Assembly: GCF_003367375.1 (NCBI RefSeq)
Contig: NZ_CP031416.1
Location: 2,053,501 to 2,117,500 of the forward strand
Direction: 5' to 3'
Source: Gallaecimonas mangrovi
GTDB lineage: Bacteria; Pseudomonadota; Gammaproteobacteria; Enterobacterales; Gallaecimonadaceae
Length of the DNA stretch: 64,000 nucleotides
Part shown: positions 19,223 to 28,400 of the stretch, one piece after another
How positions within the stretch are numbered: the stretch's first letter is position 1
Layout: each line of letters begins with the position of its first letter
Notes under the pieces: model-generated
What the model was told of the DNA's origin: nothing
Database searches by the model: none
Seen by the model: the letters and a program-made list of their open reading frames with translations, nothing else
Position numbers and translations under genes: made by a program

Positions 19223-19668
19223 TATTCCTCCTTGCCCAGCAATTTTTGCCGAAGCGCTGGTGCCCGGGTTTTATCGGATAACCAGATAGCCAAAAAGGCA
19301 GGGCCAAATTGCGGATCGGTGTTGGTGGCCAAAAGCTGGCCGTTTAACAAAAAGCGGGTTTGCTTGGGGCTGACATCCATTCGTAAGACATCGCCCTTTT
19401 TAACGTTTGGACAATAGCGCTTAAACCAGTCAACCCAGGGTTGTTGGTAAAGACCGAGGTGGCGCCACTCTTTGCCGGTTTGCTCGACAATGTCCTGGGC
19501 ATCAATGTTGCGAAGATAGGTCAGCGATAGCGCTTGAGAGCTACCGTCGGTGAAATAGCGGGCGTCGTAGATATCCCAAAAAAGATATTCAAAGCGCCCC
19601 TCGCCTTTTAGCTGCCATTGGCCAACGGCAGGTAGTGCAATGAGTAACAGCACCCAGAGCTTTTTCAT
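19222..19668 (-). CDS. Exported chalcone-isomerase-like protein
   Basis: The 148-residue precursor has a signal peptide KKLWVLLLIALPAVG and a mature domain matching the chalcone-isomerase-like family (Chalcone_3): GEGRFEYLFWDIYDARYF, LSLTYLRNIDAQDIVEQT, FGPAFLAIWLSD and ending RQKLLGKEE. Bacterial members are not known to isomerise chalcones; related folds bind fatty acids. A longer frame exists upstream but ATG 19668 has AGGAG at a 7-base distance and gives a clean signal peptide. It overlaps the upstream DUF2878 gene by four bases and the downstream DUF3833 gene by one. Confidence 0.85.
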   Translation of the reverse strand: MKKLWVLLLIALPAVGQWQLKGEGRFEYLFWDIYDARYFTDGSSQALSLTYLRNIDAQDIVEQTGKEWRHLGLYQQPWVDWFKRYCPNVKKGDVLRMDVSPKQTRFLLNGQLLATNTDPQFGPAFLAIWLSDKTRAPALRQKLLGKEE

Positions 19669-20144
19669 GCCAGGCTCCTTAGCGCTTGGCGCATTAAAAA
19701 CGGCCACAGCAATGCCCAAACAGCGGCGAGTGTCAGCAGGCTTAGCCAAAGCGGCCAACCAAACTGCGCCGCCCCCAGCCGTACGCCAGCCCAATAAGCA
19801 AGGGGCCCGCCAATGGCGCCAAAAACAGCGTTAAGCCACAGCCGGCCTTTGAGCCAAGCCAAACTGTGGTTTGGCAACATGGCAAGGGCTGCCCACAGCG
19901 CCACCAGCCAGAGCGGAATAAATAGCGGCCCGACGGCAAACTCAAAGAGCCCCAAAAGACCTAGACTGCCGTCTACCACTACCCCGGCAGCCATAAACAG
20001 CAACATTAGCTTGCCATCAGCTTTTTTCAGCGGCGTTAAATACAGGTGCAGGGCCAATAGCGCCAGCACTGGCCAGGGGCTTTGTAAAACAACCGCTGCC
20101 AACCAGGCCAGCTGGTAAAAAACCAGATTTAGCAGCCAATGCAC
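19665..20144 (-). CDS. DUF2878 membrane protein
   Basis: The 159-residue protein has five or six hydrophobic segments and matches the DUF2878 pattern: NLVFYQLAWLAAV at the start, GVVVDGSLGLLGLF in the second quarter, and FIPLWLVALWAAL. Function is unknown. The family recurs beside Cfa-type methyltransferases and DUF1365 genes. It overlaps the end of the cfa-like gene by 16 bases, a strong sign of translational coupling. Confidence 0.85.
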   Translation of the reverse strand: MHWLLNLVFYQLAWLAAVVLQSPWPVLALLALHLYLTPLKKADGKLMLLFMAAGVVVDGSLGLLGLFEFAVGPLFIPLWLVALWAALAMLPNHSLAWLKGRLWLNAVFGAIGGPLAYWAGVRLGAAQFGWPLWLSLLTLAAVWALLWPFLMRQALRSLA

Positions 20145-21382
20145 TGGCGGTTACCGGGCCGGGTAGCAACCAGATGCACCACCGAAATGGCCCGCTCCCA
20201 AAATCCGCCTTCGCAATAGCAAAGGTAGTAATCCCATAACCGTTTAAAGCGGTCGTCAAAACCGTGGCGGCGCAGCTCGTCAAAAGCGCCATGAAAACGT
20301 TCACGCCACTGGCAAAGGGTACGGGCATAGTCAAAGCCGAAGTCGTGCAGGTCACGCACCACAAAGTCGGTGTGCTTGGCCATTAACCCCAGCATGCGGC
20401 TGTTAGAGGGCAAGCAGCCCCCGGGGAAGATGTAACGCTGAATAAAATCAACCGACCGGGCATAGCTGTCGTAGCGTTGATCGCTAATGGTGATCGCTTG
20501 GATAAGCATCACCCCATTGGGTTTGAGTAACGATTGGCACTTTTTGAAAAAGCCCGGCAGGTATTTATGCCCTACCGCTTCAATCATCTCGATGCTCACC
20601 AGTTTGTCGAACTGGCCGCCAAGGTCCCGGTAGTCATCTTTTAACAGCACAATGCTGTCACTAAGGCCTGCCCTTGCCACCCGTTCAAAGGCCTCTTGAT
20701 ACTGCGCATCGGAGATGGTGGTGGTGGTAACATGGCAGCCATAATGCTTGGCCGCATGAATGGCAAGCCCGCCCCAGCCGGTACCAATCTCCAACACTTT
20801 ATCGCCGGGTTTTAAATCAAGCTTTTTACAGATCTGTTCTAAGCGGTAGTGCTGAGCATCTTCCAAGGTGGCATCGGGATGCGGATAGATAGCCGCGGAA
20901 TACATCAGGCTGTCATCCAAGAAACTTTTATAAAGGGTATTGCCCAGGTCGTAGTGCGCCAAAATGTTCTTTTTAGAACCGCTGCGACTATTACGATTGG
21001 CAAGATGTTTAATGCGCTGCACGGGCCATGTCAGCCAAGCAAGGCGCCGTTCCAGTTGGTCGAGCAGCGGCAGGTTTAGCACCATAATACGCACTAAAGC
21101 CGTTAAATCATCGCAGTGCCAGTGCCCTTCAATATAGGACTCGGCAGCACCAATACTTCCCCCAAACAGGGCTCGCGAATAGAACTGGCCATCGGTAATT
21201 TTAAGGGTGGCTGACGGCAGAGCGTTTCCGAACACAAACTGGCCTTCAACATCTTCAATGACTAGCCGCCCTTGTTGCAGATGGCTAAATAAACCGAACA
21301 TGGTTCTGCGCGCCAGACGCTGAGCAAAAGTCAGGCTGTAGGTAAAAACGCGCCGCTGTGATTGGCTTACCGGTTCCGTCAT
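20129..21382 (-). CDS. Cfa/UfaM-type fatty-acid methyltransferase
   Basis: This 417-residue enzyme of the cyclopropane-fatty-acid-synthase family transfers a methyl group from SAM to the double bond of a phospholipid acyl chain. The SAM site is VLEIGTGWGGLAIHAA; further hallmarks are NILAHYDLGNTLYKSFLDDSLMYSAAIY, LVSIEMIEAVGHKYLPGFF and IFPGGCLPS. The N-terminal 120 residues form the usual lipid-binding part. Given the flavin oxidase and DUF1365 partners, it may make methylated or furan-precursor fatty acids (UfaM-like) rather than cyclopropane rings; this is inference from the neighbourhood. The start overlaps the DUF1365 stop by four bases (ATGA). Confidence 0.92.
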   Translation of the reverse strand: MTEPVSQSQRRVFTYSLTFAQRLARRTMFGLFSHLQQGRLVIEDVEGQFVFGNALPSATLKITDGQFYSRALFGGSIGAAESYIEGHWHCDDLTALVRIMVLNLPLLDQLERRLAWLTWPVQRIKHLANRNSRSGSKKNILAHYDLGNTLYKSFLDDSLMYSAAIYPHPDATLEDAQHYRLEQICKKLDLKPGDKVLEIGTGWGGLAIHAAKHYGCHVTTTTISDAQYQEAFERVARAGLSDSIVLLKDDYRDLGGQFDKLVSIEMIEAVGHKYLPGFFKKCQSLLKPNGVMLIQAITISDQRYDSYARSVDFIQRYIFPGGCLPSNSRMLGLMAKHTDFVVRDLHDFGFDYARTLCQWRERFHGAFDELRRHGFDDRFKRLWDYYLCYCEGGFWERAISVVHLVATRPGNRQCIGC

Positions 21383-22107
21383 TTTGAGTCCTTGGAGTAG
21401 CTGTAAAATTTCACGCCTTTAAGGGCTAATTTCAGTGCCTGCCAGTAAATGCCCAGTACCACTGTTGCTGTCATAACCGGCTTTGCCAGCAGTTGCCGGC
21501 GCACCGTTTTGCGCTCCAGAGCCTTTCGCTCAAGCGCAAGGGTTGCATCAAATACGTGCCCGCGGCCGTCATGGTTTTCTAAATGCACTAAAAGTTGTTT
21601 GCCAGGTGCAATGAGTCGCCACCGATACTGCTGTTCGATAGGGTTAAACGGGGACACATGAAAGTTTTTCTGATGAGCAGCCACCTCACCGTCTACCACG
21701 TTAAAGCAGTAACAGTGCCGCTCGTTCCAGGGCGTGTTAGAAACCTCGGCCAAGAAATGGGTCCAATTGCCCGCCTCATCAAAACCGTAGTAAAAGTTCA
21801 CCGGACTAAAATAAAGGCCCAGAGTGCGAAGATTTAAAAGACCAAATACCTTGCCGGAAGGTGCCGTTCCTAACTGTTCTCGCCACTGTCTTCGCGCGCT
21901 GGCAGACAGTGATTCACGGCTGTCCCCCAGATAGTCAGGGCGATAAAAGCGGGCCAAGGCGAAACGCGTGCTCGAAAACCACCGCCCCTGGTCGGCAGGC
22001 ATTTCATCTAAGTCCAAATACCACATAAAAAACGGATAACTAAAGCGGTGGCTTTTGGGTAAGTGACGCCGATGCCTGACGTGCCCCACGTAAAGCGCGC
22101 TGGTCAT
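21379..22107 (-). CDS. DUF1365 protein
   Basis: This 242-residue DUF1365 protein has the family block SALYVGHVRHRRHLPKSHRF at its start, FSPVNFYYGFD, EVSNTPWNERHCY and FHVSPFNP. The family is repeatedly linked to Cfa-type methyltransferases and flavin amine oxidases; in Rhodobacter the corresponding set takes part in making furan fatty acids. The chemistry of DUF1365 itself is unproven. An eight-codon extension is possible, but the ATG at 22107 overlaps the stop of the upstream gene as ATGA, the pattern used throughout this operon. Confidence 0.9.
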   Translation of the reverse strand: MTSALYVGHVRHRRHLPKSHRFSYPFFMWYLDLDEMPADQGRWFSSTRFALARFYRPDYLGDSRESLSASARRQWREQLGTAPSGKVFGLLNLRTLGLYFSPVNFYYGFDEAGNWTHFLAEVSNTPWNERHCYCFNVVDGEVAAHQKNFHVSPFNPIEQQYRWRLIAPGKQLLVHLENHDGRGHVFDATLALERKALERKTVRRQLLAKPVMTATVVLGIYWQALKLALKGVKFYSYSKDSK

Positions 22108-23336
22108 GGTGTAACACCCAGCGCATCGCAAACTCGAAGCGCACTTTTAACGCCGTCTTCATGAAAGCCGCTAAACCAGTAGGCCCCGCAGTAATGGATG
22201 CCATCAACACCGGAGATTTTTTGCCATTTTTCTTGCGCACCAATGGCAGCCAAAGTGTAAACCGGGTGTGCATATTGATAACGACCCAACACCGTATCAG
22301 CCGCGACTTCATCATTTAAGGTCACCAAATAGTGCTGCTTTTTATTAAGCCGCTGCAGAATGTTCATGTTGTAGGTCACCACCGCTTTATCGCGGCTGCG
22401 GCCCATTCGGTAATTCCAACTGGCCCACGCCGCCTGACGTTTCGGCAGATGGCCGATATCGCAGTGCAACAGCACGCTGTTTTCGCTGTAGCCAAGCTGG
22501 CCCAACACCTGCTGTTCTAATGCCGTTGGCGAGGCCAGCATTTTTAACGCCTGGTCGGAGTGACAAGCCAGTACCACTTCATCAAATACCCAGTCTTGGC
22601 CGTCACTAATCAGCCTGACTTTGCCTTCAAAACGCTCGATTCGGTGAATGGGGGTATTTAAGTGAATGCGCTCTTTAAAAGGCGCGACTAAGGGGGCGAT
22701 ATACTGGCTTGAACCCCCTGCAATGGTGAACCACTGCGGACGGTTAGCGACATCAAGCAACCCATGGTTTTCAAAGAATTGGGCGAAAAACTGCAGCGGG
22801 AAGCCGCGCATGTCATCAAGCCCCATCGACCAAATAGCAGCGCCCATCGGTAATAAGTAATTTTCGATAAAAAGCGGCCCATAGCCGCCCTTTTCCAAAA
22901 AGGTGCCAAGGGTTTGGGCGCTGGGGTTATTGATCTCCTGCTTGGCAGCCTTATTAAAACGCAGAATGTCACGAATGAGCCGCCAAAACGCCGGCCGCAA
23001 CAGGTTACGCTTTTGGGCAAACAAGGTAGCGAGGCTATGGCCGTTGTATTCGAGGTTGGCTTTATCGTTACGTACCGAAAAACTCATCTCAGTTTCTTGG
23101 TAAGGCACCTTCAGTTCGGCTAACAAACGCTGGAAATTGGGGTAAGTTCGGTCGTTAAACACAATAAACCCAGTATCAATAGCGCTTTTTTCCCCAGCGT
23201 GTTCGATATCCACGGTGTGAGTGTGGCCACCCAAGTAGTCAGCCGCTTCAAAAAGCGTGACTTCATAGTGGCGAGATAAGTAATAAGCGCTACACATGCC
23301 GGCAATGCCGGAACCAACAACGGCAATACGTTTCAT
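22104..23336 (-). CDS. FAD-dependent amine-oxidase-like desaturase/oxidoreductase
   Basis: This 410-residue flavoprotein has the N-terminal FAD-binding signature RIAVVGSGIAGMCSAYYLS and the following acidic residue in FEAADYLGGHTHT; the C-terminal FAD contact is DGIHYCGAYWFSGFHEDG. It belongs to the NAD(P)-binding/amine oxidase group that accompanies Cfa-like enzymes. In Rhodobacter a homologue desaturates the methylated acyl chain (UfaD-like); that role is transferred here by context only. The start overlaps the SDR stop by four bases and its stop overlaps DUF1365. Confidence 0.88.
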   Translation of the reverse strand: MKRIAVVGSGIAGMCSAYYLSRHYEVTLFEAADYLGGHTHTVDIEHAGEKSAIDTGFIVFNDRTYPNFQRLLAELKVPYQETEMSFSVRNDKANLEYNGHSLATLFAQKRNLLRPAFWRLIRDILRFNKAAKQEINNPSAQTLGTFLEKGGYGPLFIENYLLPMGAAIWSMGLDDMRGFPLQFFAQFFENHGLLDVANRPQWFTIAGGSSQYIAPLVAPFKERIHLNTPIHRIERFEGKVRLISDGQDWVFDEVVLACHSDQALKMLASPTALEQQVLGQLGYSENSVLLHCDIGHLPKRQAAWASWNYRMGRSRDKAVVTYNMNILQRLNKKQHYLVTLNDEVAADTVLGRYQYAHPVYTLAAIGAQEKWQKISGVDGIHYCGAYWFSGFHEDGVKSALRVCDALGVTP

Positions 23337-24052
23337 GATTTGCTGATCCTTTTGGCAAGCAGCCGCCAGCAGTGCTGAGGCAATAGCCCCAGCACTTTTA
23401 ATGGCCAGGTAAAAGGTTTGGGAAAGTGAATGTGCCGCTGCCCTTTTTCAATGCCGCGGCGGATGGCCACTGAAGCCGCTTGAACACTGACTTGCATCGG
23501 CATGGGGAAGTCGTTTTTATCGGTCAGCGGCGTTTTGACAAACCCCGGAAAGACACTGGTTACCGCCACGCCAAAAGGCGCCAGGGTAATATCGAGGGTG
23601 TCAAGCAGATAACGGATAGCCGCTTTAGATGCCCCATAAGCTTCCGCCCGTGGCAGCGGTACGAAAGCCGCCGCAGAGGCCACACCAACCAACCTCGCGC
23701 CCTCGGTTTGCCTAAGGGCTGGTAACACCGCTTCAATGCAATGGGCCATGGATTCAACATTGGCCCTTAACACCCGGCTAAAGGCTGCCGAGTCAAACAC
23801 CGGCATGTCCAGGTATTCACAGGTACCAGCATTAAGAATGGCCAAATGCAGCCCACTTTGGCCCGACAGCGAGGCCAAGACGGCCTGACGGTCGGTTAAA
23901 TCGACGCTAATAGTGCGAATGCCATTGGCGGCCAGCTCGCTAAGCGCGTCAGGGTTGCGGCCAACAGCAATGATATCGTGGCCCTCGGCGGCATAATCGA
24001 GCGCCAGTTGTTTGCCAATACCCGAGGTGGCGCCGGTTATCAGTATCTTCAT
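23333..24052 (-). CDS. Short-chain dehydrogenase/reductase
   Basis: This 239-residue classical SDR has the cofactor loop TGATSGIGK, NAG at LNAGTCE, the catalytic Ser in GVASAAAF and the Tyr/Lys pair YGASK. The C-terminal part (PFTWPLKVLGLLPQHCWRLL) is amphipathic and basic, which could bind membranes, matching a lipid substrate. Homologues occur in the same place in Vibrio, Shewanella and Rhodobacter-type photolyase/Cfa clusters. The substrate is unknown. Overlap of one base with the NTF2-like gene and of four bases with the flavin oxidase gene. Confidence 0.9.
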   Translation of the reverse strand: MKILITGATSGIGKQLALDYAAEGHDIIAVGRNPDALSELAANGIRTISVDLTDRQAVLASLSGQSGLHLAILNAGTCEYLDMPVFDSAAFSRVLRANVESMAHCIEAVLPALRQTEGARLVGVASAAAFVPLPRAEAYGASKAAIRYLLDTLDITLAPFGVAVTSVFPGFVKTPLTDKNDFPMPMQVSVQAASVAIRRGIEKGQRHIHFPKPFTWPLKVLGLLPQHCWRLLAKRISKS

Positions 24053-24480
24053 TACCCTAGCCTCCTTTTAACGAAACGCACCAAGCCGCCAATAACAGGC
24101 AAACGCTCGTAAAGCATGGCGCCAAGGTCAAAATAGTCGCGGTGGTGAGTCACCTGCCCTTGGCTGTTAAAAACCAAATGGCTGGCGCCTTCGAAGCTGT
24201 ATTTTTCGCCGCGATTAAGGCGAGGATGGCGTAATTCCAGAGTCCATTGCACCCAGGCCTGAACCCCTTGTATTTGGGTACTTTGATAAACAAAAGTCAC
24301 CGCATCGACGTTGTCGTATAGCTGCTCAAAGTAATGAGTAAGCGCCGCGCGCCCGGCAATTTTTTGCGCCGGATCTTCAAACGCCACGTCATGGCTGTAC
24401 ATTTTTTCCAGCAGGTGCAGATTGCGCCGGTTAAGCTGCTGATAGTGGCTTAAAAACTGATACAGTGCCGCCTGCATCAT
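24052..24480 (-). CDS. NTF2/SnoaL-like protein
   Basis: The 142-residue single-domain protein has the nuclear transport factor 2 fold pattern: an N-terminal helix pair (FLSHYQQLNRRNLHLLEKMYSHDVAFEDP is split between helix and first strand), then strands with AGRAALTHYFEQLYDN, ATQ-like STQIQGVQAWVQWTLEL and SFEGASHLVFNSQGQVTHHRDYFD. Such proteins are ketosteroid-isomerase-like enzymes or binding proteins. It lies between photolyase and SDR with 4-base and 1-base overlaps, so it belongs to the light/lipid operon. No specific role can be assigned. Confidence 0.82.
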   Translation of the reverse strand: MMQAALYQFLSHYQQLNRRNLHLLEKMYSHDVAFEDPAQKIAGRAALTHYFEQLYDNVDAVTFVYQSTQIQGVQAWVQWTLELRHPRLNRGEKYSFEGASHLVFNSQGQVTHHRDYFDLGAMLYERLPVIGGLVRFVKRRLG

Positions 24481-25868
24481 GCCTCCTTAACCGCTTTAAA
24501 CATGGCCAGGGTTTTTAGCCGCGCTTCCTTGTGTACCACTATCGGCGCCGGATAAGCGTCAGTGGCGCGCACACCACTTGGGTCAAAAATGGCGCTGTCA
24601 CTCAGCGGCGCAAGTTCTGGGATCAAGTTACGGATAAAGCGGCCCTTGGGATCAAAGCGTTTGGCCTGTTCTGTGGGGTTAAAAATACGAAAATAAGGCG
24701 CGGCATCGGTGCCGGTGCTGGCTGCCCATTGCCAGCCACCGTTGTTAGCAGCAAAGTCGCCGTCGATAAGGTGGCGCATAAAAAAGGCTTCACCGCGCCG
24801 CCAATCGAGCTGTAAATCTTTAACGAGAAATGACGCCACTATCATCCGTAACCGGTTATGCATCCAGCCGGTCTCTAGCAGCTGACGCATGGCGGCATCG
24901 ACAATGGGATAACCAGTGCGCCCTTGGCACCAAGCGTTAAAAGCCGACTCATCCTGGCTCCAGGCAATGGCATCGGTTTCGGTTTGAAAAGCCTTCCCTT
25001 TGACCACCTGCGGAAAATGAAAGGCAACGTGCTGATAGAAATCACGCCAAACCAGCTCGCTAAACCAGGTTCCGGCACCGCTGGCGTCGGCCCAGACCTG
25101 GTCGCCATGTTCGTGCAGCAGTCGCCACAGGCACTGGCGCACCGAAATCAGGCCAATCGATAGCGCTGCCGACAGCTTGGAGGTCATGTCTAATTCGGGA
25201 AAGTCACGCTGACTTTTATAATCGGCCACCCTTTCAGTAACAAACTGGCGCATGGCGGCCAAAGCTTGCACTTCATCCCTTGGCCAGGGCGCTAACTGCT
25301 GGTCCCATTTGGCGTCTGAAAACACCGGCACCGGCGGGGCTGCTATCGCTTGGCCCTTTATTCTTGCTGACACCTCGGGAATGCCCGTCAGCAACTGGTT
25401 TTTTAGCTGCTTTTTAAAGGGGGTAAACACCCTATAGGGCTGCCCCTGGCCGGTAAGTACCGTGCCGGGCGCCGTCAATAGGCTGTCGTGATAAAAGTGG
25501 CAGGCAACATCAAGGGCGGCGCGCACGGCTTCATCGCGGGCAATTTCGTTAACTAAATACTCGTGGTTGGCATAAAGCGCCGTAACGGTGTTCTGGTGGC
25601 AATACTGAGCCAGGCACGCGGATACCCCAGCAAAATCCTCAACGGACAGCACATCAAGGGCGATACCTATTTTTGCCAACTGCAGCGCCAATGCTTCCAG
25701 CGCCTTGTTAATCAGCCGCACTTTCACCGGCGCCATGTGGTGACGCTGCCATTGCTCTGGCGTCACCACAAAGACGGCCCGCACCGGCATGCCGCTGGCA
25801 ACAGCCGCGCAAAGCGCTTTGTTATCGATGCTGCGAAGATCGTTTCGAAACCACATCAGTGCCGTCAT
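24477..25868 (-). CDS. phrB: Deoxyribodipyrimidine photolyase (CPD class I)
   Basis: This 463-residue photolyase uses blue light to split cyclobutane pyrimidine dimers. It has the N-terminal antenna domain (LMWFRNDLRSIDNKAL) and the C-terminal FAD domain with WRDFYQHVAFHFPQ, GRTGYPIVDAAMRQL, TGWMHNRLRMIVASFL and the strongly conserved region FAANNGGWQWAASTGTDA with YFRIFNP. Length fits E. coli PhrB (472). The ATG overlaps the stop of the MerR gene by four bases, so photolyase is made from the same message as its probable regulator. Confidence 0.96.
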   Translation of the reverse strand: MTALMWFRNDLRSIDNKALCAAVASGMPVRAVFVVTPEQWQRHHMAPVKVRLINKALEALALQLAKIGIALDVLSVEDFAGVSACLAQYCHQNTVTALYANHEYLVNEIARDEAVRAALDVACHFYHDSLLTAPGTVLTGQGQPYRVFTPFKKQLKNQLLTGIPEVSARIKGQAIAAPPVPVFSDAKWDQQLAPWPRDEVQALAAMRQFVTERVADYKSQRDFPELDMTSKLSAALSIGLISVRQCLWRLLHEHGDQVWADASGAGTWFSELVWRDFYQHVAFHFPQVVKGKAFQTETDAIAWSQDESAFNAWCQGRTGYPIVDAAMRQLLETGWMHNRLRMIVASFLVKDLQLDWRRGEAFFMRHLIDGDFAANNGGWQWAASTGTDAAPYFRIFNPTEQAKRFDPKGRFIRNLIPELAPLSDSAIFDPSGVRATDAYPAPIVVHKEARLKTLAMFKAVKEA

Positions 25869-26575
25869 AGCGCCTCCTTAAGAGAAAAGGCCCCCGGTAG
25901 CACCGACATACTGGTTTCAGGAGGATGTTTGATAGCACCAATGAAACACTGCGCTGGGGCCAATGCCGCTAATGCTAATTGCAGTTGTGAAGGGGATAAC
26001 TGCTCACCTAAGTCCACAAGGTTATAACGCTGGCAAAGCAGCGCTTTTACCATGAGCCGCCAAAGAGTGGGCAATGGGCCAGCCAGAACCGCAAGGGGCC
26101 TTTTTTGTGGCTGGGCAAGGCGGCAGATACCGGCCAAGCGCAAGCTTAACTCGCTTTCTAAAAGACTACGGGCAGCCAATGAAAAAGGCCCCTCTGGCCA
26201 ATGCTCCAGCTGCTGCCAGAGCGCGTCACAAGCGATACCCAGCGGATGCTCTTTTAGCAATACATCCAAAGACTGGCGCAGCGCGCCGGCATTAAGGCTT
26301 TGAGCTTGTGCCAGAATGGGTGTGGCAATGGGGGCTGCAACAGGCTCACCAATGCCTTTTAAAAGCTGCTTGATGTCCTTTAGACCCACGCCCATGGCGA
26401 GATAACGACGAATTTTGGCAATCTTATCCAGCTCCGTTACCGGATAAAGCCGATGCCCTTTTGGCGTGCGCTGCGGCTTTAACAGCCCATAGCGGCGCTC
26501 CCAGGCTCGTAAGGTAACGGGCAATACGCCGCTACGTTCGGCTAGCTCGCCGATTTTTAACAGTTCAGAGTCCAT
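25865..26575 (-). CDS. CarH/LitR-like MerR regulator with degenerate B12 domain
   Basis: This 236-residue regulator has an N-terminal MerR winged helix (KIGELAERSGVLPVTLRAWERRYGLLKPQRT, residues 6-75 in two blocks) typical of the light-responsive CarH/LitR group. The C-terminal half follows the layout of a cobalamin-binding module, but the key residues are gone: the W-x9-EH motif has W126 followed by Arg-Ser where Glu-His is expected, and the loop that normally holds the cobalt-binding His reads LAGPLPTLW (164-172). It therefore resembles class II LitR proteins, which do not use B12 and respond to light through a separate LOV protein. ATG 26575 overlaps the upstream gene by 11 bases; a TTG further up has no ribosome site. 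Confidence 0.85.
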   Translation of the reverse strand: MDSELLKIGELAERSGVLPVTLRAWERRYGLLKPQRTPKGHRLYPVTELDKIAKIRRYLAMGVGLKDIKQLLKGIGEPVAAPIATPILAQAQSLNAGALRQSLDVLLKEHPLGIACDALWQQLEHWPEGPFSLAARSLLESELSLRLAGICRLAQPQKRPLAVLAGPLPTLWRLMVKALLCQRYNLVDLGEQLSPSQLQLALAALAPAQCFIGAIKHPPETSMSVLPGAFSLKEAL

Positions 26576-27509
26576 AACGTAATTTAAGGTCAGCAGGATA
26601 AGGGTGCAGATAACTTTGCTCGGCAAGGTAAGGCACCGGATGCAAACGCAAGTGATGGTTGATAAGGGTTAAAGGCGCCATCAGCGGCACCAGGCCCTGA
26701 CGGTAGTCGTCTATGAGGCTGGCCAGTTCCTGCTTTTCTGCACCACTTAGCACTTTCTTAAAAAAGCCCTGCAAGTGCATCAAGGTGTTGGCGTGGTCTT
26801 TTTTACTGGCGGGGTGTTTGAGCGCCGCCATAAAGCGGCCGATATATTGCTCCGCCACCGCCATTACGTCGTCTTTGCTGGCACTGGCGATAAGCGGGCC
26901 AAGCTGGCGGTAAAGCGGCTGGTTATGGGCCAACAACAAGAACTTATGTTGCCGGTGAAACGCCATCAGGTCAGAGGTTGTTAAGCCCTTCGCCTTAAGC
27001 TGCTGCCATTGGTGATATGCCATCACCCGCATCACAAAATTTTCGCGAAGCAATGGGTCATGTAAACGGCCGTCTTCTTCAACCGGTAAATTGGGGTAAA
27101 ACGCCATTAGCGCTTTGGCATAAACCCCTACCCCTACCTTCCCCAAACCGTCGCCATTTTCACGGTAAACCCGCACCCGCTCCATACCGCAAGTGGGGGA
27201 TTTGGCACAAAGAATGTAGCCGCACAAGTTGGCCAGCTTAGGTAAGGTTTGCTGAGTAAAGGCATTGAGTTGGTCGGTAACATCCAGGGCCAAGTCTTTT
27301 GTCCCTTGCACCCTTGGCCTGTCAGGGTGACCGACCAAACGGATAGTCGGCCTGGGAGTGCCCATGCCGATAGCCATTTCCGGGCAGATTGCAACGAAGC
27401 GAAAGTGCCGGCCTAATTCGTCAGCAATAAAGCGCGACAGCTTGTGGCCGCCGTCAAAACGTACTTTTTCACCCAGCACGCAGCTGCTAACACCCACCGG
27501 TATCGTCAT
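26565..27509 (-). CDS. ybgA: DUF523-DUF1722 protein (YbgA-like, TudS-like N-terminal half)
   Basis: This 314-residue two-domain protein begins with DUF523 (residues 1-150) with three family cysteine sites: SSCVLGEKVR, ICPEM and SPTCGMERV. The DUF523 family includes TudS, an iron-sulfur thiouracil desulfidase. It continues with DUF1722 (about 190-305), seen in FHRQHKFLLLAHNQPLYRQLG and the C-terminal LRLHPVPYLAEQSYLHPYP. E. coli ybgA lies directly upstream of phr, the same partnership as here. A role in handling photodamaged or thio-modified nucleobases or tRNA fits the family but is inference. First gene of the overlapping operon; GGAG precedes the ATG. Confidence 0.9.
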   Translation of the reverse strand: MTIPVGVSSCVLGEKVRFDGGHKLSRFIADELGRHFRFVAICPEMAIGMGTPRPTIRLVGHPDRPRVQGTKDLALDVTDQLNAFTQQTLPKLANLCGYILCAKSPTCGMERVRVYRENGDGLGKVGVGVYAKALMAFYPNLPVEEDGRLHDPLLRENFVMRVMAYHQWQQLKAKGLTTSDLMAFHRQHKFLLLAHNQPLYRQLGPLIASASKDDVMAVAEQYIGRFMAALKHPASKKDHANTLMHLQGFFKKVLSGAEKQELASLIDDYRQGLVPLMAPLTLINHHLRLHPVPYLAEQSYLHPYPADLKLRYGL

Positions 27510-27524
27510 CCTCGCTCCAAAATC

Positions 27525-27548
27525 TATACAGCGTTTTATAAATGTATA
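27525..27548 (-). promoter_or_regulatory. Class II LitR-type operator, TATACA-N12-TGTATA
   Basis: The perfect inverted repeat TATACA, 12 bases, TGTATA lies 16-39 bases before the first operon gene. From memory, the consensus bound by Pseudomonas putida PplR1 (class II LitR) is T(G/A)TACA-N12-TGTA(C/T)A, which this matches at every defined base. A further TGTACA is at 27575-27580. -10-like TATACAT and TATAAA elements lie within the site on the minus strand, so binding would repress in the dark. The site also faces the divergent DUF1853 gene. Confidence 0.65.
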
Positions 27549-27632
27549 AGTTTTATCTTGTGAGCTTAGCTACGTGTACAAGAACTGCCAGGATCAATCC
27601 GCTAAAAAATTTCCCGTGGTAATCTCTAGTGC

Positions 27633-28400
27633 ATGGAAAAAATCCGCTTTCCCCCTGACGATGTCCAAGGGATGCTCAATTGGCTCTGCCATTCTCCAGC
27701 GCTACTTAGCATTGGTGATAGCGCCTGCCTGCCAAACCCTGGCCATATTGACCTTGAGCGTTTAGCCGAAGACTTAGCCAAGACCGCGCGCTTGGGTAAA
27801 CGCTTTGAGTTATTGGTCAGTGCTGTGGTTGAAAGCAGTGGCCAATACCAAATACTGGCCAGGGACCAAGCCATTACGGTTAACAAACGCACCGTCGGCG
27901 CGCCGGATTTACTGCTCAAAAATCTCAGTAATGGCCAACTTGAACACTGGGAGCTGACGGTAAAATTTTATTTAGGATTAGAAAAAGGTTGGCTTGGACC
28001 GGGACAAAAAGACTGGCTGGAGAATAAGGCTGCACATTTGGCCCAGCAGCAGCTGGTATTGCTAAACCGGCCTGAGACGCAGCCTTGGCTAAAACAATAC
28101 GGTGACAAGGTGAGCAGCACCCGGCTTTTAAGCCGCGGCATACTGTTTGGAGAAGGTCCTGACTACGGTTGGCTGGCTAAGGGTTATCGCCACGGAAATT
28201 GGTACAAACCCAGTACCTTGCCGCAAAGACCCTGGCGGCAACTTAGCCGCTGGCAATGGATAAGCAATACCAACGATGTTGCCCTGCCCTTACTGGCCAT
28301 GCCAATTCAGGCACCGATTATGCTACAAGATCCCCAGAGCCAGCAACGACACATGCTGGTACCTGAAAATTGGCCTGACAACGTAAAAGGAGAGCCCTAA
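27633..28400 (+). CDS. DUF1853 protein
   Basis: The 255-residue protein of the DUF1853 family has the conserved core GAPDLLLKN followed by EHWELTVKFYLG, an Asp/Glu-x-Lys arrangement reminiscent of PD-(D/E)xK nuclease-like folds, and GWLGPGQKDWLENKAAHL. Function is unknown. It is transcribed divergently from the photolyase operon and shares the 123-base intergenic region with the LitR-type operator. The stop lies inside a terminator hairpin. Confidence 0.85.
   Translation: MEKIRFPPDDVQGMLNWLCHSPALLSIGDSACLPNPGHIDLERLAEDLAKTARLGKRFELLVSAVVESSGQYQILARDQAITVNKRTVGAPDLLLKNLSNGQLEHWELTVKFYLGLEKGWLGPGQKDWLENKAAHLAQQQLVLLNRPETQPWLKQYGDKVSSTRLLSRGILFGEGPDYGWLAKGYRHGNWYKPSTLPQRPWRQLSRWQWISNTNDVALPLLAMPIQAPIMLQDPQSQQRHMLVPENWPDNVKGEP

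Follow-up and report, generated by a model that had tools for sequence, protein, structure and literature searches.

Within the window (the whole 64-kb stretch of DNA analysed), a perfect inverted repeat lies immediately ahead of a photorepair operon, raising the question of which regulator lands there and which promoter that regulator controls. Very probably the repeat is a true target of a regulator that the following operon itself encodes and, judging from sequence, it seems likely that this MerR-type protein is a repressor acting at an ECF11 promoter, with both inputs needed for expression. The operator and the genes of the operon are:

27525–27548, no strand assigned: inverted repeat TATACA-N12-TGTATA, proposed MerR operator (exact consensus match and conservation)
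26565–27509, minus: rudS, operon gene 1, TudS (2-thiouracil desulfurase)-DUF1722 fusion (PF04463 and PF08349)
25865–26575, minus: merR, 236-aa class II LitR/CarH-like regulator, proposed repressor (PF13411, CarH match)
24477–25868, minus: phrB, deoxyribodipyrimidine photolyase (NF007955 over cut-off; PF03441, PF00875)
24052–24480, minus: SnoaL-like protein (PF12680)
23333–24052, minus: SDR-family oxidoreductase (PF00106)
22104–23336, minus: flavin-containing amine oxidoreductase family protein (PF01593)
21379–22131, minus: DUF1365 protein (PF07103)
20129–21382, minus: cyclopropane-synthase-family methyltransferase (PF02353; NF008686 below cut-off)
19665–20144, minus: DUF2878 protein (PF11086)

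A divergent DUF1853 gene (27633–28400, plus strand) shares a 123-bp intergenic region with the operon. RudS has been described as a tRNA s4U desulfidase (PMC11417400; this and the other papers cited are represented here by parts of their text).

The repeat (TATACAGCGTTTTATAAATGTATA; 27525–27548) fits T(G/A)TACA-N12-TGTA(C/T)A exactly, a consensus that the initial annotation had given for PplR1 of Pseudomonas putida and that is indeed quoted as the PplR1 operator in PMC9758184. Its position ahead of the first gene of the operon is also as annotated, 16 positions from the rudS ATG (27509; 15 bases between), with half-sites at -39 and -21 relative to this codon. No second exact match exists in the window (mean of 0.00 in 100 dinucleotide shuffles) or in the whole genome (4,071,977 bp), and the repeat remained the single site when N11–N13 spacings and all half-site combinations were allowed (reversed controls 0 and 2). 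The genome-wide search suggested in the initial annotation thus found the site to be unique, yet the reversed control pattern also matched once and one-mismatch sites were about as frequent as for the control (six vs five), so that motif count alone is not above chance and the case for the site is one of position and conservation. Further exact sites, expected near other light-induced genes, were not present in this genome with the exact consensus or with any of these spacings and half-site combinations, and a genome-wide regulon based on operator count was rejected.

Conservation was examined first in five genomes of the genus (G000, the window genome; G015; G040; G060; G078), in all of which the operator lies 40 to 11 bases before the rudS ATG. 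G000, G015 and G040 match the consensus exactly, whereas G078 departs from it at one position (TGTACA-N12-CGTATA) and G060 has N11 spacing; the half-sites persist while the inner 12 bases and the flanks diverge. Two N12 sites are found in a more distant relative (L033). For a broader view, 300 bp upstream of rudS were scanned in the best 80 of 594 confirmed rudS loci, taken from one genome scan, a non-random sample in which Shewanella and Aeromonas predominate. In these 80 best loci T[AG]TACA-Nd-TGTA[CT]A occurs with N11 (6 loci), N12 (12) and N13 (28), with a second peak at N25 (10) and N26 (3), while N3, N10, N14, N21, N24 and N27 are represented by one locus each and the remaining spacings between 0 and 30 by none. 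An N11–N13 operator is present in 42 of the 80, compared with a mean of 0.025 and a maximum of 1 in 200 mononucleotide shuffles. Start-to-start distances between half-sites within 200 bp lie near 17–19, 29–33 and 48–52 in the 38 loci with MerR; in the 42 MerR-less loci the only distances are 18 (4 loci), 19 (3), 20 (2) and 38 (2).

Presence of the operator follows presence of the regulator gene. Among the 80 best loci, an N11–N13 operator was found in 30/32 with merR directly after rudS and 12/48 of the others (Fisher 4.5e-10), the latter group including Aeromonas L063 only through an early frame start, as its MerR match is at the usual place. When MerR anywhere in the locus is counted and the five genus genomes are added, the operator accompanies 39/43 loci with MerR and 7/42 without. 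The Shewanella loci within the 80 give the same picture (12/13 merR-positive, 0/9 merR-negative) and on the rudS tree a rough parsimony reconstruction places 16 operator changes, with nine of the 11 MerR changes that it infers falling on the branch, and in the direction, of one of these. MerR without an exact operator was identified in Shewanella L069, Motilimonas L084, L068 and G078 (one mismatch). The converse, an operator with no MerR in about 9 kb, is confined to seven enterobacterial loci (L077, L078, L098, L105, L107, L118 and L122), from Rahnella (3), Erwinia (2), Mixta and one further member of the Enterobacterales, where a MerR encoded elsewhere likely acts on the operator. That the repeat is a chance, functionless one, as the single match of the reversed control might suggest, is extremely improbable against its conservation, the spacing peaks and the co-occurrence with MerR. 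The same three observations strongly support assignment of the operator to the operon's own MerR, as initially annotated, although the accompanying reading of the promoter was incomplete and the light signal was an assumption.

The initial annotation placed the operator over -10-like sequences. However, a sigma-70 promoter scan of 27300–27800 scored no site, leading to rejection of a sigma-70 promoter at the operator, and the conserved promoter is of ECF11 type, a TGATCC-N16-CGTA pair on the minus strand (27571–27596) that had been overlooked:

27591–27596, minus: -35 box TGATCC of the ECF11 (RpoE-ChrR type) promoter (N16 spacing; conserved in the genus)
27571–27574, minus: -10 box CGTA of the ECF11 promoter (pairs with TGATCC; published motif)
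27575–27580, no strand assigned: third half-site TGTACA, inside the ECF promoter spacer, 32 bases start-to-start from the operator

With this as the conserved promoter, the operator begins 26 nt downstream of the CGTA start and not over the -10. The third half-site completes an array at -71, -39 and -21 from the rudS ATG (32 and 18 apart), matching the spacing in MerR-positive loci, but is degenerate in G015 and G040 (TTGTACC/TTGTACG only) and therefore weaker than the main site. The promoter motif corresponds to TGATC-N16-18-CGTAW of V. cholerae sigma-E/ChrR (PMC5241685) and to the TGATCC and CGTA motifs described for RpoE2 in S. oneidensis (PMC4336711) and for targets of PSPTO_1043 in P. syringae (PMC5507510). 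ECF11/ChrR systems elsewhere respond to singlet oxygen or photo-oxidative stress.

Within the genus, G015 and G040 (N16) and G078 (N17) share the TGATCC/CGTA pair at the equivalent position. ChrR (TIGR02451) scores over the cut-off in G000 (172.2 bits, cut-off 124.5), G015, G040 and G078, and promoter and ChrR thus occur in the same four of five genomes; G060 retains the N11 operator but has neither a TGATCC-CGTA promoter upstream of rudS nor a ChrR over the cut-off. All four genomes with ChrR also have an ECF11-type promoter ahead of the presumed rpoE beside chrR; in the window genome, a sigma-70 r2/r4 protein is encoded just upstream of ChrR and TGATCT-N16-CGTA, a putative autoregulatory promoter, precedes the sigma gene. 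Across the 80 best of 594 loci, TGATC[CT]-Nd-CGTA was found with N16 (21 loci) or N17 (6), other spacings from 8 to 27 being limited to single occurrences of N8 and N27, and the strict promoter is present in most of the Aeromonas and Shewanella loci in this sample. ChrR was sought in 50 of the 80, hand-chosen for genera and within-genus contrasts (18 of 27 strict-promoter loci, 32 of 53 others), and scored over the cut-off in 18/18 genomes with the strict promoter vs 17/32 others (p 2.9e-4 for these chosen loci). None of the 15 ChrR-less genomes among the 50 has even a one-mismatch promoter site, while 17 of the 35 ChrR-positive genomes lack the strict promoter, 11 of them having a one-mismatch site in the 300 bp (some perhaps by chance) and six none. 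ChrR-less Aeromonas simiae (L136) and Shewanella fodinae (L069) retain MerR, and L136 also the operator.

These data bear on an alternative explanation, class II LitR control alone as known from Pseudomonas, whereby the operator would overlap a sigma-70 promoter kept silent in darkness, ECF input would be lacking and TGATCC-CGTA would be coincidental. Such an arrangement has a precedent in P6650 of P. mendocina, a sigma-70-like promoter with two such sites (PMC9758184), and loci from Pseudomonas (L135), Stutzerimonas (L088) and Oceanimonas (L127) have MerR without a strict ECF promoter. For this operon, however, it appears improbable: TGATC[CT]-CGTA peaks solely at N16/N17 and tracks ChrR both among the tested genomes and in the genus, the sigma-70 scan was empty, and RpoE2 dependence has already been listed for the orthologous ybgA promoter of S. 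oneidensis (PMC4336711).

A scan of the window genome for TGATCC-CGTA gave 11 matches vs 2 for the reversed control, only two of which, upstream of rudS and of a DPRP gene (L040), are within 61 bases before a gene that they could drive; seven of the others are inside long frames and two have no ORF nearby that was found. Given this context, and a reversed control that is perhaps biased low, no enrichment is claimed, nor a regulon, as only 2/11 matches fit a promoter by context. At the L040 site (G000:C1:1156796-1156821, minus) the motif is TGATCC-N16-CGTA and stands 32 bases ahead of a DPRP (PF04244) gene related to photolyases, with no MerR operator; this gene is probably a second ECF11 target in the window genome.

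How operator and promoter are superimposed varies. The operator encloses the -35 TGATCC in every one of the 12 Shewanella loci that have both elements in strict form, while in the seven such Aeromonas loci it begins 19–20 nt past the CGTA start (26 nt in the window). Enterovibrio L071, Motilimonas L084 and Photobacterium L126 show a third way of overlapping both signals, TGATCC-N16 running into a TGTACA half-site at the -10, where TGTA replaces CGTA. Both signals are therefore retained, with an overlap arranged differently by lineage, and the most straightforward interpretation is an ECF promoter locked by a repressor. Many MerR proteins activate transcription, and MerR might instead do so here from a site downstream of or inside the promoter. 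The V. cholerae authors were themselves undecided between suppressor and enhancer (PMC5241685). Nevertheless, activation is quite improbable, given that the site covers the sigma -35 box in the 12 Shewanella loci and that PmlR2 was reported as a repressor in run-off assays (PMC9758184).

The proposed repression by the operon's own MerR raises the question of what this protein senses. Pfam identified only the HTH in the 236-aa MerR, and no B12 domain; among 34 aligned MerR proteins, B12-binding_2 was detected in seven and B12-binding in two (E up to 1). A sequence search of solved structures matched CarH/LitR over residues 6–155 and 6–160 (CarH E 4.6e-10, 6–155), and the MerR family profile matched CarH at 1.8e-33. 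In the AlphaFold2 model (34-row alignment; pLDDT 92.7, pTM 0.87) the protein is predicted to have an HTH, a four-helix bundle and a shortened Rossmann part, with residues 82–236 resembling the CarH B12 domain (Z 11.7, 3.2 A, 153 residues, 15% identity), although the AppA SCHIC domain (Z 11.3) ties with it by the rule of the tool. Model and sequence together indicate a C-terminal CarH/LitR-like B12-domain fold with a weak or lost B12-binding signature. The first ~75 residues, containing the HTH, have 49% identity to MerR of Pseudomonas L135 (PplR1-like by rudS-phr context only). The 13 invariant columns among the 34 proteins are all at or before residue 62, and MerRs from outside the genus have 43–58% identity over the HTH part and 12–22% over the rest (L088 is included in the alignment, A3, but excluded from the identity table), a contrast that would fit a common operator and an altered sensor.

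The B12 ligands of CarH, which we take to be E-H in the bundle plus a lower His, are absent from the window MerR, which in the alignment has AARS and PLPTL where L068 and L114 have AEEH and PGEHE. The MerRs of these two loci (L068:480-1388 and L114:2779-3672, both minus), encoded near rudS, keep E-H and the lower His and are possibly true B12 photoreceptors; L114 also has an N13 operator. Neither an exact LOV motif (NCRFLQ-type DNA pattern) nor BLUF was found in any of the five genus genomes. The LOV pattern is loose enough to accept some F and S codons, and it picked up LOV-like proteins at other loci (L137, L138 and L140; of 10 loci inspected these three were LOV-like and the others chance frames), but it found none in the Pseudomonas L135 genome and non-canonical LOVs escape it, so the LOV negative in the genus is not final. 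Light as the signal for MerR, as proposed in the initial annotation, was therefore ahead of the evidence.

MerR might bind the operator but use a degenerate CarH/SCHIC-like domain to sense redox state, heme or a metabolite, light acting through ChrR only. We regard this as possible but the less likely option: the missing CarH ligands, the lack of an exact LOV motif or BLUF and the tie between AppA SCHIC and the CarH B12 domain are all in keeping with it, while photorepair genes within the operon, the part played by the class II relative PmlR2 in a blue-light switch (PMC9758184) and the blindness to blue light of a V. cholerae chrR merR double mutant (PMC5241685) argue for a light-linked MerR. 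If MerR is light-linked, it would point to a sensor yet to be recognised in a genus where canonical LOV/BLUF were not found (5 genomes).

What the analysis shows is a pair of conserved DNA elements, one coupled to MerR and the other to ChrR, together with a CarH-like predicted fold, and two light-linked signals appear to govern one repair gene set. In the proposed mechanism, the class II LitR/CarH-like MerR, product of the second gene, would bind the operator ahead of rudS, and ECF sigma freed from ChrR would drive the operon from the RpoE-ChrR (ECF11) type promoter just upstream. MerR, at roughly +15 to +40 from the inferred start site and possibly contacting the half-site in the -35/-10 spacer, would block RNA polymerase. 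Transcription of rudS-merR-phrB and the lipid-type genes, presumably as a single transcript, would then need two events, release of sigma from ChrR and release of MerR from the operator, the latter presumably in response to light. As merR is inside the operon, the system would reset through negative feedback. A more far-reaching and tentative reading is of a two-key promoter widespread among gammaproteobacteria, with a CarH/LitR-derived repressor on an ECF11 singlet-oxygen promoter, positioned at the -35 in Shewanella, at the -10 in L071/L084/L126, at the spacer and downstream in the window genus and downstream in Aeromonas, where the light key of the window genus would be not B12, LOV or BLUF but an unrecognised sensor on a degenerate B12 fold. 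If true, the genes for tRNA s4U removal, photolyase and lipid modification would be expressed only under light combined with photo-oxidative damage.

Several known systems share parts of this arrangement. Closest to the MerR part are the class II LitRs of Pseudomonas (PplR1-3 of P. putida KT2440 and PmlR2 of P. mendocina), with the same operator consensus in multi-site arrays (PMC9758184), the same PhrB-LitR-RudS linkage (PMC11417400) and likewise a MerR HTH plus a B12-domain-like C-terminal part. In contrast, the window MerR is shorter (236 aa vs 318/321 for PmlR1/PmlR2), the window genome has a single exact operator, the promoter is ECF11 rather than sigma-70-like as for P6650, and PmlR2 is controlled by a short LOV photoreceptor (PMC9758184), whereas no canonical LOV motif was found in the five genomes of the window genus. 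Class I CarH/LitR, the B12 photoreceptor of Thermus thermophilus, shares an HTH, a four-helix bundle and a Rossmann-like part with the window MerR as modelled, but its B12 ligand residues are not conserved in the window protein. RudS operons similarly combine the TudS-DUF1722 gene with MerR and photolyase, and light-inducible s4U removal has been suggested for them, with LitR/MerR control named, but not ECF sigma input, in the available text (PMC11417400).

On the sigma side, RpoE-ChrR (ECF11) regulon systems and the window genome alike encode ChrR. Promoters of the same TGATCC-N16-CGTA type precede the rudS operon of S. oneidensis (ybgA/SO_3386, RpoE2; PMC4336711) and phrB of P. syringae (PSPTO_1043; PMC5507510). 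The S. oneidensis table gives the ybgA-phrB-cfa operon with TGATCCTTGTACAAGAATGGTCCGTAAT, and the ybgA promoter contains TTGTACAAG, yet MerR occurs 0 times in the available text of that paper (PMC4336711). The methyltransferase and oxidoreductase of the window operon resemble in kind, by description, the R. sphaeroides enzymes for furan fatty acids (UfaM, UfaD and UfaO), whose product builds up further on chrR deletion (PMC7380195). In V. cholerae, MerR (VCA0056) is beside phr, as in the window operon, and deletion of chrR and merR together abolishes the blue-light response, the authors leaving unsettled whether both belong to one pathway (PMC5241685). The available text of that paper gives no operator for MerR. 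In the available parts of the open-licence PubMed Central literature no description of a MerR operator on an ECF11 promoter was found; MerR has no occurrence in the corresponding text of an ECF11 review (PMC6852236) and one, in a reference, in PMC11976125. Class II LitR repression and ECF11 control of this operon are thus each known separately, and their overlay is described in none of these texts; its layout seems to vary among lineages while both inputs are kept. It joins in one promoter two literatures, on class II LitR repression in Pseudomonas and on RpoE-ChrR activation in Shewanella, Vibrio and P. syringae, and its testable geometry bears on the V. cholerae question of whether MerR and ChrR share a pathway (PMC5241685).
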